This document shows, in pieces, positions 3,893 through 14,996 of a stretch of 27,461 bases of DNA. Every line of letters starts with the position of its first letter. The first letter of the stretch is position 1. Origin of the DNA: a virus; the IMG/VR virus record IMGVR_UViG_3300032235_000226, positions 1 through 27,461 of that record; one strand, given 5' to 3'. The position numbers and the translations under genes are program-made. The notes under the pieces are model-generated. The model had not been told where the DNA came from. It ran no database searches and saw only the letters and a program-made list of their open reading frames with translations.

Positions 3893-4975
3893 ATGGCAAA
3901 AATTGCAGTATATACAATTGCCCTTAACGAGGAAAAGTTCGTTGAGAGATGGTATGAAAGTGCCAAAGATGCCGACTATCTCTTAATTGCAGATACAGGT
4001 AGTACGGATGGTACCCGCGAAACTGCAATTAAGCTTGGAATCAACGTAATCGACATTACAGTGCGTCCTTGGCGATTTGATGATGCCAGAAATGCGTCCT
4101 TAGCCGCACTTCCAGCGGACATCGACATGTGTGTTCAGCTCGATATGGATGAGATACTTTTACCGGGGTGGCGTCAAGAAATCGAAAACGCCCTTACTGA
4201 AGGTGCTACCAGGATTAGGTACAACTACACCTGGAACTGGAAAGACGAGGCTCAGACAGTCCCGAGCACAACCTTTGGCGGAGACAAGATCCACGCTCGT
4301 AAAGGGTATAGATGGAAGCATCCGGTACACGAGGTAATAGTTCCTTACGGAGACACTGCAGAGAAGCAGGTTTGGACTAAGCTAGAGCTACACCACCACC
4401 CGGACAACACTAAATCAAGATCACAGTATCTACCTCTACTAAAACTCTCAGTCGAAGAAGATCCTAGTAATGACCGGAATTCTTTTTATTACGCGAGAGA
4501 ACTCTACTTCTATAGATACTACGAGGAAGCAGCAAAAGAATTTAAGCGGCACCTAAGCCTACCGTCCGCAACCTGGGCACCGGAAAGGGCAGCATCAATG
4601 AGGTATCTGGCCAAGATAGAGCCTGAAGCCAGAGAACACTGGCTAATAAACGCTCATATGACTGCTCCATTGAGAAGAGAAGCATTAGTGGAGCTTGCTC
4701 AGCACTTATACTCGGATCAAAGCTGGGCATCCTGCAAGCACTTTGCTGTTAAAGCTCTAGATATAGCGGAAAAACCTATGGACTATCTGTGCGAAGACTT
4801 TGCATGGGGCTCTACTCCATGGGACCTAGCGGCAATTGCTTCATATAATCTAGGTGAGTTCGAGGATGCCTATCGTTTTGGAAAAAAGGCAGCTGAATTG
4901 GAACCTAACGATGAGCGTCTAGCTAAAAACTTAGAGTTTTACGCCGCTAGTTTTGATCGTTCTTCTTCTTTATAG
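3893..4975 (+). CDS. Family 2 glycosyltransferase with helical-repeat C-terminus
   Basis: A 360-residue protein with a GT2 domain in the first 150-200 residues: YTIALNEEKFVERW at the start, IADTGSTDGT (nucleotide-sugar loop) and VQLDMDEIL with the metal-binding DxD. The second half is alpha helical, with TPR-like stretches such as FYYARELYFYRYYEEAAKEF and ASYNLGEFEDAYRFGKKAAELEPND. This pairing of GT2 and TPR is common in bacterial and phage sugar transferases. No membrane segment is seen. It ends the + strand group, and its last 29 bases overlap the convergent WhiB gene. Confidence 0.8.
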   Translation: MAKIAVYTIALNEEKFVERWYESAKDADYLLIADTGSTDGTRETAIKLGINVIDITVRPWRFDDARNASLAALPADIDMCVQLDMDEILLPGWRQEIENALTEGATRIRYNYTWNWKDEAQTVPSTTFGGDKIHARKGYRWKHPVHEVIVPYGDTAEKQVWTKLELHHHPDNTKSRSQYLPLLKLSVEEDPSNDRNSFYYARELYFYRYYEEAAKEFKRHLSLPSATWAPERAASMRYLAKIEPEAREHWLINAHMTAPLRREALVELAQHLYSDQSWASCKHFAVKALDIAEKPMDYLCEDFAWGSTPWDLAAIASYNLGEFEDAYRFGKKAAELEPNDERLAKNLEFYAASFDRSSSL

Positions 4976-5408
4976 CGTGGTAGGCGTCTACAGCATTAGC
5001 ACTAGTTCTGCTCTGCCAAGTAAAACTACAGTTGTCGCATCTAACAATTCTCATTGTGGCCCATCGGCCGCCTTCTGGCCTATCAACCGTGGCAGTCTTT
5101 AGATGATCTGTCTTACATCTGCAGCTTGGGCAAAGAGGGAATCGCTTATAGCGCATCTCCTGGCCATCCCAGTTGACAGATAAAGTATTGCGGATCTGGC
5201 CAGAGTCCAATCCACCCCAGATACCCCAAATCTGTTTGTTGTCAAGTGCCCATTTAGCGCAGTCGCGCTTTACCGGACAACTATTGCAAAGCTTCTTAGC
5301 CTCCCACTGCTGGGCAGGCTTGTTGGCAAAGAAGTTGTCCATCTTGTCAGCGTTTTCTGGCTTAGCGCACTCGGCATCTTCGTGCCATTCTGGTCCATTA
5401 GTCCACAT
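4947..5408 (-). CDS. WhiB-family regulator fused to a C-terminal zinc ribbon
   Basis: A 153-residue protein with a WhiB domain: Cys14, then Cys41-x2-Cys44-x5-Cys50 for a [4Fe-4S] cluster, and the signature GIWGG (62-66). WhiB proteins bind the host primary sigma factor and alter promoter choice; phage members can silence host whiB genes. Instead of the usual short basic tail it carries a second module with Cys93-x2-Cys96 and Cys124-x2-Cys127, a zinc ribbon. The ATG at 5408 was chosen because AGAGG lies six bases upstream; an in-frame TTG at 5414 is too close to it. The start lies inside the end of the upstream acidic gene, which suggests translational coupling. It is the last gene of the - strand set. 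Confidence 0.88.
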   Translation of the reverse strand: MWTNGPEWHEDAECAKPENADKMDNFFANKPAQQWEAKKLCNSCPVKRDCAKWALDNKQIWGIWGGLDSGQIRNTLSVNWDGQEMRYKRFPLCPSCRCKTDHLKTATVDRPEGGRWATMRIVRCDNCSFTWQSRTSANAVDAYHAIKKKNDQN

Positions 5409-5733
5409 ATGCAACCTCTACATATGTAGCATCCCAGTCATAGCTCTCGTCATCTAAATCGCAGTATGCAGGGAGATCAACTTCGGAGTCTTCGGCGCAG
5501 TATCCAGCATGAGAGATAGAAGCACTATCTATCAGAGAAAAAGATTTTCCGAGAGAGGGTGCAATTCCTTCTCTTTGAATGGCTATTGCTAAGTCTTTAC
5601 GAAGCTCTTGGTCAGAGTCTAAGTCAAAATGTCCTGTTATATAGAAAACAACAGAATCAGAATGAAGAGTGCGAGGAAAGTCGTCGCCTTCCCAGGTAAG
5701 CCACTCAGACTTAGAAACTTTTCTTCTACGCAT
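5398..5733 (-). CDS. Acidic hypothetical protein
   Basis: A 111-residue protein I do not recognise. The N-terminus is basic (MRRRKVSKS), the middle includes VVFYITGHFDLD and a possible helix DQELRKDLAIAIQREG, and the last third is strongly acidic (about 12 Asp/Glu in the last 32 residues). The charge split could suit a nucleic-acid mimic or a protein-binding tail, but nothing specific supports that. No clear Shine-Dalgarno precedes the ATG, which lies in the loop of a 7-bp hairpin. Its end overlaps the whiB-like gene start by 11 bases, so both are likely on one message. Confidence 0.6.
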   Translation of the reverse strand: MRRRKVSKSEWLTWEGDDFPRTLHSDSVVFYITGHFDLDSDQELRKDLAIAIQREGIAPSLGKSFSLIDSASISHAGYCAEDSEVDLPAYCDLDDESYDWDATYVEVAYVD

Positions 5734-5785: not shown

Positions 5786-6277
5786 TTACTGCACTGGCCA
5801 GATATAGTCATAAGTTTCTGGCCTGTGACCAGGATCCTCAGCCCATCCAAACTGGCTATACCACTCGTAGTCCTTGCTAAGCAGCGCCATGCGGTGGCTG
5901 GCTGCAATAGGACCGAAAGTGGCAGAGTCACGCATCCAGTCAGGAAGCCTGTGGCTGTCCTTAGTGATGCGACCCAGCTTAACGGCCTGATAGTAAGTGG
6001 TTAGAGTCTTCTCACCGATAGTGGACTTGTAGCCACGTCGCTGCCACTCAAGGACCATTTTAAGGATGTAGTAGGTAAGGGCACCTTCGTGACCTCGCCA
6101 CATCTTTACAGCAGGGTGGTTGGACCAACCCTTGGAGATGCGGTCATTGCCCTGAGGGTCCAGCTGGACAAGGTTCATAAGAATCTGCCAGCCCTCTAGA
6201 GCTTGCTTATTAAGACGGGCACGGTCAAGAACCTTAGCGGTATCCGCCGAGCCATTTAGCGGTACAAATGTTTGCAT
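5786..6277 (-). CDS. Pyrimidine-dimer DNA glycosylase-like protein (MSMEG_6728 type)
   Basis: A 163-residue protein resembling actinobacterial MSMEG_6728-type proteins, which are annotated as pyrimidine-dimer DNA glycosylases related to T4 endonuclease V. The family pattern is clear: MQTFVPL at the start, VLDRARLNKQALEGWQIL (about 16-33, with Arg21, Lys24 and Glu28), then GWSNHPAVKMWRGHEGALTYY. Such an enzyme would cut UV dimers from phage DNA, useful for phage exposed to sunlight. There is no Shine-Dalgarno; a promoter ends six bases before the ATG, so the message is probably leaderless. It is set apart from its neighbours by short gaps and has its own promoter. Confidence 0.75.
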   Translation of the reverse strand: MQTFVPLNGSADTAKVLDRARLNKQALEGWQILMNLVQLDPQGNDRISKGWSNHPAVKMWRGHEGALTYYILKMVLEWQRRGYKSTIGEKTLTTYYQAVKLGRITKDSHRLPDWMRDSATFGPIAASHRMALLSKDYEWYSQFGWAEDPGHRPETYDYIWPVQ

Positions 6278-6313: not shown

Positions 6314-6568
6314 CTAAAAGCCAAAAGGTTTTGCAACACTCTGCTTAACAGAGCCAAAAACTATAATCTGGAAAACTTTAGAGGCTACGGATTCTTCGAT
6401 CTCGGGAACAGTTTCTGCTTTAGGGTATGAGACCTTAAGCTCTAGAGACACTTTGTCTTCTAGTTCAGATTCGTCAATCCCGAGGAACTCGGAAATCTGC
6501 TTAACTGCAGTAGCTTTAGCTTCTTTTAGGTTGGAAGCTACAATCTTTAGCTCAAAACTTGTTCTCAT
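6314..6568 (-). CDS. Hypothetical protein, alpha/beta
   Basis: An 84-residue protein I do not recognise. It begins with a strand-like segment FELKIVAS, then a helix LKEAKATAVKQISEFLG, an acidic turn, a second strand VSLELKVSY and a hydrophobic VFQIIVFGSV near the end, a beta-alpha-beta pattern of a small ferredoxin-like or dodecin-like fold. Its ATG shares one base with the stop of the upstream gene (TAATG), so it is translationally coupled. It is the last gene of the operon that starts at 8006. Confidence 0.55.
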   Translation of the reverse strand: MRTSFELKIVASNLKEAKATAVKQISEFLGIDESELEDKVSLELKVSYPKAETVPEIEESVASKVFQIIVFGSVKQSVAKPFGF

Positions 6569-7002
6569 TAGGCTTTCCTAACTCGCTTTTCTAGCTTATA
6601 TGGAGAATAGTGGACGCCCTTAAGTTCAGGCGACTTTCCATCGGTGCTGTTTACAATGATGTCACCATATCTAACAGCAACCACTACACCCCTACGTCCA
6701 TTGTGAATGGGGCCAAGTTTGTCAGTATAGGCATCCGCTTTGACGCGAATAACATCACCAACTGTCACCTGACCTGGTTGCAGGTCAATCCAAAAAAAGT
6801 CATCTTCGGTCTCATCAATTTTAAGTACGTGACCTAGAGCAAGTTTAGGGAAAACAGTCAAAACTTCTTCCGTCATTTTGTCACTTAGCTCAGGGATCTC
6901 GCTCCAAGTTTCTAGAAGCTTAAGAATTGCTTTTCCCGATCCAACTTTAACCTTGGCAGCCTCTAGCTGCTCCATGATCCACTTCTTATCAATTTCTGGC
7001 AT
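6568..7002 (-). CDS. Hypothetical protein with a KOW/SH3-like C-terminal segment
   Basis: A 144-residue protein of unknown function. The N-terminal half is helical (KKWIMEQLEAAKVKVGSGKAILKLLETW). The C-terminal half has a small beta-barrel look: GDVIRVKADAYTDKLG then HNGRRGVVVAVRYGDIIVN, similar in arrangement to KOW or SH3-like barrels that bind RNA or ribosomal/transcription partners. AAGGAGAG lies just upstream. Both its start and its stop form TAATG overlaps with neighbours, so it is the middle of a tightly coupled three-gene set with the glycosyltransferase-like gene upstream and the 84-residue gene downstream. The KOW resemblance is by eye only. Confidence 0.55.
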   Translation of the reverse strand: MPEIDKKWIMEQLEAAKVKVGSGKAILKLLETWSEIPELSDKMTEEVLTVFPKLALGHVLKIDETEDDFFWIDLQPGQVTVGDVIRVKADAYTDKLGPIHNGRRGVVVAVRYGDIIVNSTDGKSPELKGVHYSPYKLEKRVRKA

Positions 7003-8006
7003 TATATTCTCTCCTTAGTAGAGTCTATCAGATTATTTTTAAGGCTCTCTAGCGTCTCATCAGCAGTGTAGATTCCTTGCATATAAGAGTCCCGCTGGCG
7101 AGCAGCTAAGTGCTGGCGTTCCGCAGGGGACATGTCCTCGACCTGGTACGCGATCATTGACCAGGACGGATCAAACCTCTGAGTTGCAGGCCAATACGTC
7201 ACCACTGGAGTCTGCGTGTTAAGTGCTTGAATCATCCTATAGTTCCACCATGTGATCATATTTCTCTCCTGAGGAGGGAGCAATAGTCCCATGCTCTCTT
7301 TTACAACCTCTAAAGCATAAGAGTCATCAGTCTTTCTTCCTAGCTTAGTTGGAGTTCTAGGAAACACGGTGACCTTGTCTAGAGACTCTACCCAAGAGTT
7401 CTTAGGGTTCTCGATAGACCAAAAGTCCTTCCTACCGATTCGGGGAAGTTCGGGCGTGAGAAGTAACGCGTCCAGATTTACAGGTGTAATATCGGATGCA
7501 TCTACAAACTTTAACGCAGACGCCACTATTTCCTTAGAATTCCAAGGAAGACTCGGATATAAAATTTCTGGCCAAGGCGACACCAACATGTGTGCCGCAG
7601 CTCTTTCTAATATAGATGTGTTGGATTTTGCCGCTGAATAGCCTTCTCTTTTTTCGTAAGCTTTGCCCAAGAGCAATCCAGGGTCTCTAGTCACAGCTGA
7701 GATGCTGTTTTTGTACTGCCAAACTTGCGGACTATCTACAACAATTTTTAGTTTAGGGGAATCAAACATCAACCCTAAAACATTCATAGCGCCGTACAGT
7801 TTATTTGCGCTAAGGGATGTTGGAGGCATTAAGCCAAATATTACTAAATCAAACTTGTCTAAATCCTGGTGTGTCCAGGAAACGTTCGGAGACATCCAAA
7901 CAACTTCGGCAAAAGTAGAGAGTGCGTCCGATAAAACAGTAAAGAAACTGGTGTTTTCGGGACGCTTACAGTGGTGTGATCCCATTCCAGTAAAAAGAAT
8001 TCTCAT
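7002..8006 (-). CDS. GT-B-like glycosyltransferase (probable)
   Basis: A 334-residue protein. The ATG at 8006 was chosen over the longer frame because GAGGT sits five bases upstream and the protein then opens with a Rossmann-like strand MRILFTGMGSHHC. The N-terminal half includes FDLVIFGLMPP and KIVVDSPQVW. The C-terminal half has ITWWNYRMIQALNTQTPVVTYWP, the arrangement seen at the donor-binding side of GT-B enzymes, then a final helix. No membrane segment is seen. It is the first gene of a three-gene coupled operon placed just after a strong terminator hairpin, so it may be read by run-through or by a promoter I cannot pick out. The fold assignment is moderate; substrate is unknown. Confidence 0.5.
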   Translation of the reverse strand: MRILFTGMGSHHCKRPENTSFFTVLSDALSTFAEVVWMSPNVSWTHQDLDKFDLVIFGLMPPTSLSANKLYGAMNVLGLMFDSPKLKIVVDSPQVWQYKNSISAVTRDPGLLLGKAYEKREGYSAAKSNTSILERAAAHMLVSPWPEILYPSLPWNSKEIVASALKFVDASDITPVNLDALLLTPELPRIGRKDFWSIENPKNSWVESLDKVTVFPRTPTKLGRKTDDSYALEVVKESMGLLLPPQERNMITWWNYRMIQALNTQTPVVTYWPATQRFDPSWSMIAYQVEDMSPAERQHLAARQRDSYMQGIYTADETLESLKNNLIDSTKERI

Positions 8007-8030
8007 ATTAACCTCGCCGTATGTAAATAA

Positions 8031-8054
8031 GTGGGGCACCCGAAGATGCCCCAC
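8031..8054 (-). terminator. UUCG-tetraloop hairpin terminator
   Basis: On the - strand GTGGGGCA and TGCCCCAC form a perfect 8-bp GC-rich stem, extended by a T-G wobble and a C-G pair that closes a TTCG loop: a cUUCGg tetraloop, among the most stable RNA hairpins. It begins ten bases after the SSB stop codon and is followed by TTATTTAC, a modest U-rich run. It should end the SNF2-nuclease-Sak4-SSB message, perhaps with some read-through. Confidence 0.85.
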
Positions 8055-14525: not shown

Positions 14526-14996
14526 TTAAGGAACTATTTCAAGAGTATACACACCAGCGATACCGATGTCAACTCTAGACGCATCCTTAAGAAGTCTCTG
14601 AGCCACGCTAGTTAAATACCTAGCACCATTATTGTCATATTTATGTAACGCTTCCAACACAGCCTCGGGGCGGTCACTTACTTGCGCCCAGTATCTATAT
14701 TTTTCAGGAAATATAAGATCTAGAGTCTCGTCCGGGTTGCACTCTTCGCAAGGAGTTGCAGCCGAAGATAGATGAGATGTGGACGCCTCTTTTAGCCCAT
14801 ATCGGGAGACTAAGGAGCATGCAGCACCATGATAGATTAGCGACACGCCGACACGGGACAGAATATAAGAGCCTGATTCTGTTTTATATAGCTCGAATTC
14901 AATCCAACGATAAGCCCCTCTACGCTCCGAGGTGGACTTAGCTAACAGAACACCGTTAAATTGTAGGGTTCTGTCGCCGTCTTTTACTTCTAGCAA
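14526..14996 (-). CDS. Hypothetical protein beside DNA polymerase
   Basis: A 156-residue protein I do not recognise. The N-terminal half is beta-rich with RTLQFNGVLLAKSTSERRGAY and RWIEFELYKTESGSYILSR, then VSLIYHGAACSLVSRYG. A CEEC motif at the middle is followed by a helical part YWAQVSDRPEAVLEALHKYDN and ARYLTSVAQRLLKDAS. The start is a TTG at 14996, two bases after the stop of the coiled-coil gene, with only AAGAAG as a possible Shine-Dalgarno. Its place directly before the polymerase suggests a replication or DNA-metabolism role, but that is position only. Confidence 0.55.
   Translation of the reverse strand: MLEVKDGDRTLQFNGVLLAKSTSERRGAYRWIEFELYKTESGSYILSRVGVSLIYHGAACSLVSRYGLKEASTSHLSSAATPCEECNPDETLDLIFPEKYRYWAQVSDRPEAVLEALHKYDNNGARYLTSVAQRLLKDASRVDIGIAGVYTLEIVP

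Follow-up and report, generated by a model that had tools for sequence, protein, structure and literature searches.

A WhiB-like gene with a second cysteine module

The gene described here lies in the viral record IMGVR_UViG_3300032235_000226 of IMG/VR, whose 27,461 nucleotides constitute the window that was analysed. It is read on the minus strand, from an ATG at 5408 to a TAG at 4949-4947, and encodes a WhiB-like (Wbl) iron-sulfur domain followed by a linker, a zinc ribbon and a C-terminal helix (Table 1); we refer to the protein as ribbon-WhiB. An initial annotation had placed the gene correctly at 4947-5408, leaving the strand unstated; on the plus strand the frame is broken by stops. It had also proposed the fusion of a WhiB protein with a four-Cys ribbon, and the ribbon cysteines 93, 96, 124 and 127 (CxxC...CxxC) are exactly as it claimed. 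Pfam PF02467 (Whib) covers residues 8-69 (E 9.7e-17, 61.7 bits vs a cut-off of 23.6), and cysteines 14, 41, 44 and 50, in the arrangement C...CxxCx5C, are the Fe-S cysteines that the family requires. The Wbl beta-turn, G[I/V]W[G/A]G, is present as G62-I-W-G-G66 (GIWGG), and the residues expected to contact sigma region 4 are W8, F26, F27 and W64. In the domain search by profile methods that had been suggested as a check, PF02467 matched the WhiB half and the ribbon rose above no model's threshold.

Conservation

An IMG/VR search with the full window protein gave 69 loci, and 31 representatives, with 52-91% identity to the window protein, could be aligned nearly without gaps. All eight cysteines are invariant in these relatives, as are W8, W64, L103, P111, G114-R-W116, F129, W131 and the run S133-R-T-S-A-N-A-V140, and F26 and F27 are kept in at least 90% of them. 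Likewise, 79 distinct cores from fetched loci match an eight-Cys pattern, the turn reading GI/VWGG in 74 and GTR[AG]G in the other five, which come from Microbacterium phages. The best-conserved stretch, absent from the initial annotation, lies just past the ribbon (SRTSANAVDAYH, within residues 133-145), where the segment 133-145 has a mean conservation of 0.92; the Wbl domain reaches 0.74 and the ribbon 0.73. Synonymous positions are close to saturation, and the rough median ratios of nonsynonymous to synonymous substitution rates, 0.15 for the WhiB domain and 0.17 for the ribbon plus tail, come from the few unsaturated pairs. As judged from the coding sequences, the gene is under purifying selection. 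The ribbon is not a product of chance, since all eight cysteines are invariant in the 31 relatives and the 79 cores fit the pattern; a frame error is ruled out by the same invariance together with the purifying selection.

Predicted structure and identity of the ribbon

An AlphaFold model of the window protein, built with 31 sequences (mean predicted local distance difference test score, pLDDT, 82.6), places the Wbl helices at residues 8-11, 17-27, 31-42, 47-56 and 69-76. The second half consists of a weak linker, strands at 103-109, 118-124 and 130-132 and a helix at 134-152, and the same elements appear when the ribbon is folded alone; the two CxxC knuckles and the three-stranded sheet make it a zinc ribbon in the model. 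The best fold match of the Wbl half is WhiB1 bound to SigA region 4 (6ono; VIA-align Z 8.8, root-mean-square deviation 1.1 over 67 residues), which corresponds to the helical Wbl fold, and the closest solved sequence is Streptomyces venezuelae WhiB (8dy9).

The ribbon half gave only sub-threshold matches in sequence searches of Pfam, PHROG, NCBIfam and the PDB, among them weak matches to VdcD/ShdD (E 0.003-0.1), and the strong PHROG matches stop at about residue 97, past the WhiB half. A ribbon borrowed from a named family was rejected because these library matches are all sub-threshold. The first structural matches in BFVD are Lar restriction-alleviation proteins, at the top, and TFIIS-type ribbons, and the pairwise profile comparisons (hhalign) gave 92% for RPB9/RPC10, 81% for RalR/Lar and 59% for NrdR. 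Lar/RalR proteins (PF14354) share a CPxCG...CxxC ribbon followed by a helix, and 13 of 17 ribbon rows match them weakly in sequence, but RalR stands alone and lacks both the GRW loop and SRTSANAV; the PF14354 cut-off is reached by none of eight records (Pumpernickel, 16.3 vs 28.6 bits). With the TFIIS/RPB9 ribbon (PF01096) the family shares three strands and the CPxC...CxxCxxxW knuckles, a pairwise profile similarity only, but not the acidic DE loop: the hairpin reads VDRPEGGRW in the window protein and VNRPNGGRW in some relatives, against DEP in RPB9-type rows, and the DE pair is absent. The NrdR ribbon was discarded because the family lacks its DSR...RRRRxC...RFTT signature and the comparison reached a VIA-align Z of only 3.4. 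From the predicted fold we therefore take the module for a phage zinc ribbon of generic type, trailed by a helix and closest to Lar in shape, and claim no kinship, because chemokines, RPB9, NrdR and RNase P proteins tie under Z 4.

Distribution

A search of IMG/VR with the ribbon only yielded at least 555 confirmed relatives. In 79 of the 80 best matches the ribbon lies behind a WhiB domain within one open reading frame, the exception being a contig that ends inside the gene; no ribbon standing alone or attached to another protein was found among these best 80 of at least 555, more distant cases being possible. Only WhiB proteins match the ribbon at a meaningful E-value in named phage records, and they do so in eight of the 50,697 records: Actinomycetia phage DSL-LC01, which comes from Dishui Lake, Pumpernickel (two records), Cece, Big4, Zooman, A3Wally and one more, the Microbacterium phages having genomes of roughly 190 kb. 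Some WhiB match (E up to 1) occurs in 955 of the named records, so the ribbon form is a small minority among isolated phages. Four Arthrobacter phages (Atuin, Racecar, Talia1610 and Mimi) have matches that cover 86% of the full protein at about 30% identity; Atuin, whose protein was the only Arthrobacter one read, carries a shorter, diverged CxxC...CxxC module without GRW and tail. Two pattern-based genome scans of 84,980 species, which divergent copies may escape, confirmed no cellular relative, and plasmid WhiB matches cover at most 75% of the query.

When the Wbl domain alone is used to build a tree (27 rows, 73 columns, no host proteins included), all 15 sampled ribbon carriers fall on one side of a single branch with support 99/97; Atuin sits on a long branch and its placement is unsure. 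The fusion is real, old and widespread among actinophages that are mostly known from uncultured freshwater sequences, and ribbon-WhiB, a variant of the known Wbl family, is conserved across a large group of these phages.

Genomic neighbourhood

The ribbon-WhiB gene closes a leftward run with genes for a DNA polymerase, a helicase, an exonuclease, a Sak4-like protein and SSB, followed by unknown genes, a glycosylase gene and a gene of 111 codons (Table 1). In DSL-LC01 the order glycosylase, unknown gene, WhiB is the same, and the Microbacterium phages have RecA, unknown genes and WhiB, then a convergent DnaQ gene. Since neighbour order is kept in relatives, the gene belongs to an inherited replication-repair block. 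A rightward run (D5-type primase/helicase, exonuclease-like gene, glycosyltransferase) converges with it tail to tail, with an overlap of 29 bases at the 3' ends.

A homologue of the 111-aa protein was detected in 65 of 72 loci with room for it, ending at most 80 bases from whiB in 56 of the 72. This protein is acidic, has no family match and is co-conserved with whiB, and it may be a partner.

A promoter scan of the window gave a total of sites not above that of shuffled sequences, and therefore no target promoter is claimed; the site listed in Table 1 is a consensus match only. A search of 17 records, the window among them, gave no sigma region 2, though a diverged phage sigma may escape it, and this makes the host sigma, as far as sequence can tell, the likely partner. 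A phage sigma factor was considered and set aside, because the readable PF04545 matches belong to a protein of about 200 aa with two helix-turn-helix motifs and no region 2. This conserved protein, with TRERVRQ and LGxTHGALRFRLxRYGYK motifs and a weak Sigma70_r4 match, is possibly a phage DNA-binding regulator, and the Microbacterium phages carry two copies of it, near both ends.

Elsewhere in the window, two proteins of the replication-repair run, of 350 aa (7002-8054, minus strand) and 144 aa (6568-7002, minus strand), have no convincing family match; their homologues occur in 63 and 67 of the loci compared, respectively. Two overlapping frames upstream of the tape-measure gene (25541-24808, minus strand), where GGAAAAG lies in the correct phase at 25173-25167, likely represent the -1 programmed frameshift of a tail assembly chaperone, as read from the sequence. 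A search against a defence-system library gave no match.

Table 1. Positions of the ribbon-WhiB gene, its parts and neighbouring features in the window.
Feature	Position	Strand	Remarks
WhiB-like protein with C-terminal zinc ribbon	4947..5408	-	complete gene, 153 aa
Wbl domain, residues 8-76	5181..5387	-	PF02467; fold match to WhiB1 6ono
Linker, residues 77-90 (SVNWDGQEMRYKRF)	5139..5180	-	sequence conserved; residues 82-88 with pLDDT <50
Zinc ribbon, residues 91-132	5013..5138	-	four Cys, three strands; P111 and G114-R-W116 kept
C-terminal helix and Lys-rich end, residues 133-153	4950..5012	-	SRTSANAV invariant in 31 relatives
111-aa gene, function unassigned	5398..5733	-	upstream neighbour; 11-base overlap with whiB start
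Pyrimidine-dimer DNA glycosylase gene	5786..6277	-	Pfam PF03013, E 3e-18; next in leftward run
Promoter-like site TTGACA-17-TATACT	14544..14572	-	ahead of the DNA polymerase gene heading the leftward run; consensus match only

Comparison with known WhiB proteins

By every family-defining feature that can be tested in the window sequence the protein is a Wbl protein, and its second module makes it a new form of that family. With the family (PF02467) it shares the four-Cys Fe-S domain, the GIWGG turn, the helical fold and the aromatic sigma-4 contacts. It differs from the family in having 26 residues between the first and second cysteine and in its end: the short basic tail or AT-hook, a C-terminal feature common among Wbl proteins and not required for membership, is replaced by the linker, the ribbon and the long helix.

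Ordinary actinophage WhiB proteins (those of Nibb and Ekdilam, and the short second WhiB of freshwater relatives) have the same N-terminal domain, but at about 80-115 aa they stop soon past it, mostly in a basic end, and carry no ribbon. Such a second short Wbl is usual in the freshwater relatives, and those read carry an Arg-rich tail. DSL-LC01 has three WhiB-type genes. The initial annotation took a short basic tail to be the usual end of phage WhiB proteins, which holds only in part: in Mycobacterium phages such as BigPhil (gp56), WhiB is fused to a different Cys-rich tail. Ribbon-WhiB and the gp56 type both have a long Cys-rich C-terminal part, but the gp56 tail has other Cys spacing and several modules; it matches 25 phage records at E 1e-3, gp56 being annotated only as WhiB. 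From its sequence, the BigPhil form looks like an independent fusion.

It had also been asked whether the ribbon belongs to a known WhiB subfamily. A whole subfamily of phage WhiB proteins does indeed have it, but none of the Pfam, PHROG or NCBIfam models found covers the ribbon, and a literature search, most subscription journals lying outside it, revealed no description of a WhiB plus zinc ribbon architecture in phages. The architecture is therefore unnamed in the libraries and literature searched.

Possible mechanism

Previous studies of Wbl proteins bear on how such a protein may work. Binding to sigma-A region 4 needs F17, F18 and W60 in WhiB1 (F31, F32 and W76 in WhiB3), with W3 supportive, and a single Ala change at F31, F32 or W76 of WhiB3 abolishes it (PMC10245118). 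Wbl proteins have a common sigma site and differ in the part that contacts DNA, which is a C-terminal AT-hook in WhiB7, an Arg-rich loop in WhiB3 and the partner WhiA for Streptomyces WhiB (PMC10245118). The counterparts of WhiB1 W3, F17, F18 and W60 in the window protein are W8, F26, F27 and W64.

We hypothesize that ribbon-WhiB acts as a phage Wbl regulator and has two metal modules, of which the first docks on sigma and the ribbon makes a second contact, most likely with promoter DNA, a reading that we hold with about as much doubt as confidence. First, the conserved residues and the fold suggest that the [4Fe-4S] domain would dock on region 4 of the host housekeeping sigma through W8, F26, F27 and W64. 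The ribbon and helix, on their flexible linker, would then take the place of the AT-hook or basic tail of host Wbl proteins and provide the other contact, for which promoter DNA at the -35 element or upstream of it is the likeliest target, so that host RNA polymerase may be steered to chosen phage or host promoters. Finally, because the gene comes last in the leftward replication-repair run, the protein may be made together with the early or middle gene products and influence later transcription or host shut-off. The interpretation given in the initial annotation is partly supported: contact with host sigma is plausible because W8, F26, F27 and W64 are kept, while contact of the ribbon with nucleic acid or RNA polymerase is, like its binding of zinc, an inference. 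The two modules would act together, since the ribbon was never found apart from WhiB in the best 80 matches. The ribbon form appears to be a separate tool, because another, short Wbl with an Arg tail is often present in these phages as well, and the two probably differ in their promoters or time of action. DNA contact is favoured by what fills the tail position, a conserved ribbon with GRW and SRTS plus a Lys-containing end.

Several observations weigh against this reading. Residues 91-132 have only a small positive excess (K+R 7, D+E 4). The zinc ribbon fold serves widely in contacts with proteins and not only with DNA, and the fold matches of this one are weak: RPB9, TFIIS, NrdR and RNase P ribbons reach Z 3-3.7, level with chemokines. 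The gene sits amid replication and repair genes, and a role outside transcription is possible. In Pumpernickel, Cece, Big4, Zooman and A3Wally, GIWGG reads GTRAG or GTRGG while all eight cysteines and the ribbon are kept; the Trp essential for sigma binding in WhiB3 is thus gone in five Microbacterium phage proteins. In the sequences of this branch the ribbon is better preserved than the sigma hook, and either these proteins may use another hook or the ribbon may carry the main function. A bolder version, which we advance tentatively and doubt more than we believe, is that of a phage-only Wbl subclass, as seen so far, in which ribbon and helix would read promoters, making the protein a self-contained sigma adaptor with no WhiA-like partner; in the Microbacterium forms the ribbon would have become the main anchor and the sigma hook been given up.

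The alternative that survives best, though we consider it rather unlikely, is that the ribbon is a protein-contact module gripping RNA polymerase, at its beta flap, beta-prime or some other subunit, or else the 111-aa product, with DNA contacted only by sigma, so that the protein would be a holoenzyme clamp and not a DNA reader. RPB9/RPC10 was the best ribbon profile match tried, structure matches extend to RPB9, RPA12 and TFIIS, and the 111-aa gene overlaps the start of whiB and is co-conserved with it; yet the acidic TFIIS-type DE loop is missing, some relatives having no acidic residue at all in VNRPNGGRW, and zinc ribbons match one another so widely that a pairwise 92% is no proof of kinship.

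More improbable is a host-takeover inhibitor that would block sigma region 4 or rival host WhiB and so stop host division or transcription, as has been reported for the WhiB of mycobacteriophage TM4, the ribbon only stabilizing the protein or blocking an essential Wbl. The nearest solved sequence, Streptomyces WhiB, is an orthologue of the host target WhiB2 (PMC10245118), which agrees with this proposal, but a pure competitor needs no ribbon and tail this conserved, and the second plain Wbl of many of these phages could serve instead. The least probable alternative gives the protein an auxiliary part in phage DNA replication or repair, with its Lar-like ribbon binding damaged or single-stranded DNA: a run that includes genes for a DNA polymerase, a helicase, an exonuclease, a Sak4-like protein, SSB and a DNA glycosylase ends with this gene, the setting is the same in the Microbacterium phages that lost the sigma-essential Trp, and Lar-type proteins head the BFVD matches, but the full sigma-binding turn stands in the window protein and in 74 of 79 distinct cores, and we know of no replication role for Wbl proteins. 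The regulator docked on sigma, with the ribbon most likely on promoter DNA, is the reading we prefer to these.

Significance

WhiB genes are a marker of actinophages, including phages of the abundant freshwater Nanopelagicales (PMC10202952, PMC6802176), and among phage WhiB proteins TM4 WhiB alone has been studied in the course of infection (PMC8612146). The annotation 'WhiB' spans at least three architectures. A subfamily that has a further conserved metal module and occurs in cultured Microbacterium phages offers a concrete protein for probing how host RNA polymerase is redirected, and the GTR[AG]G forms of these phages, which warn against a sigma-only account, are the most interesting lead.
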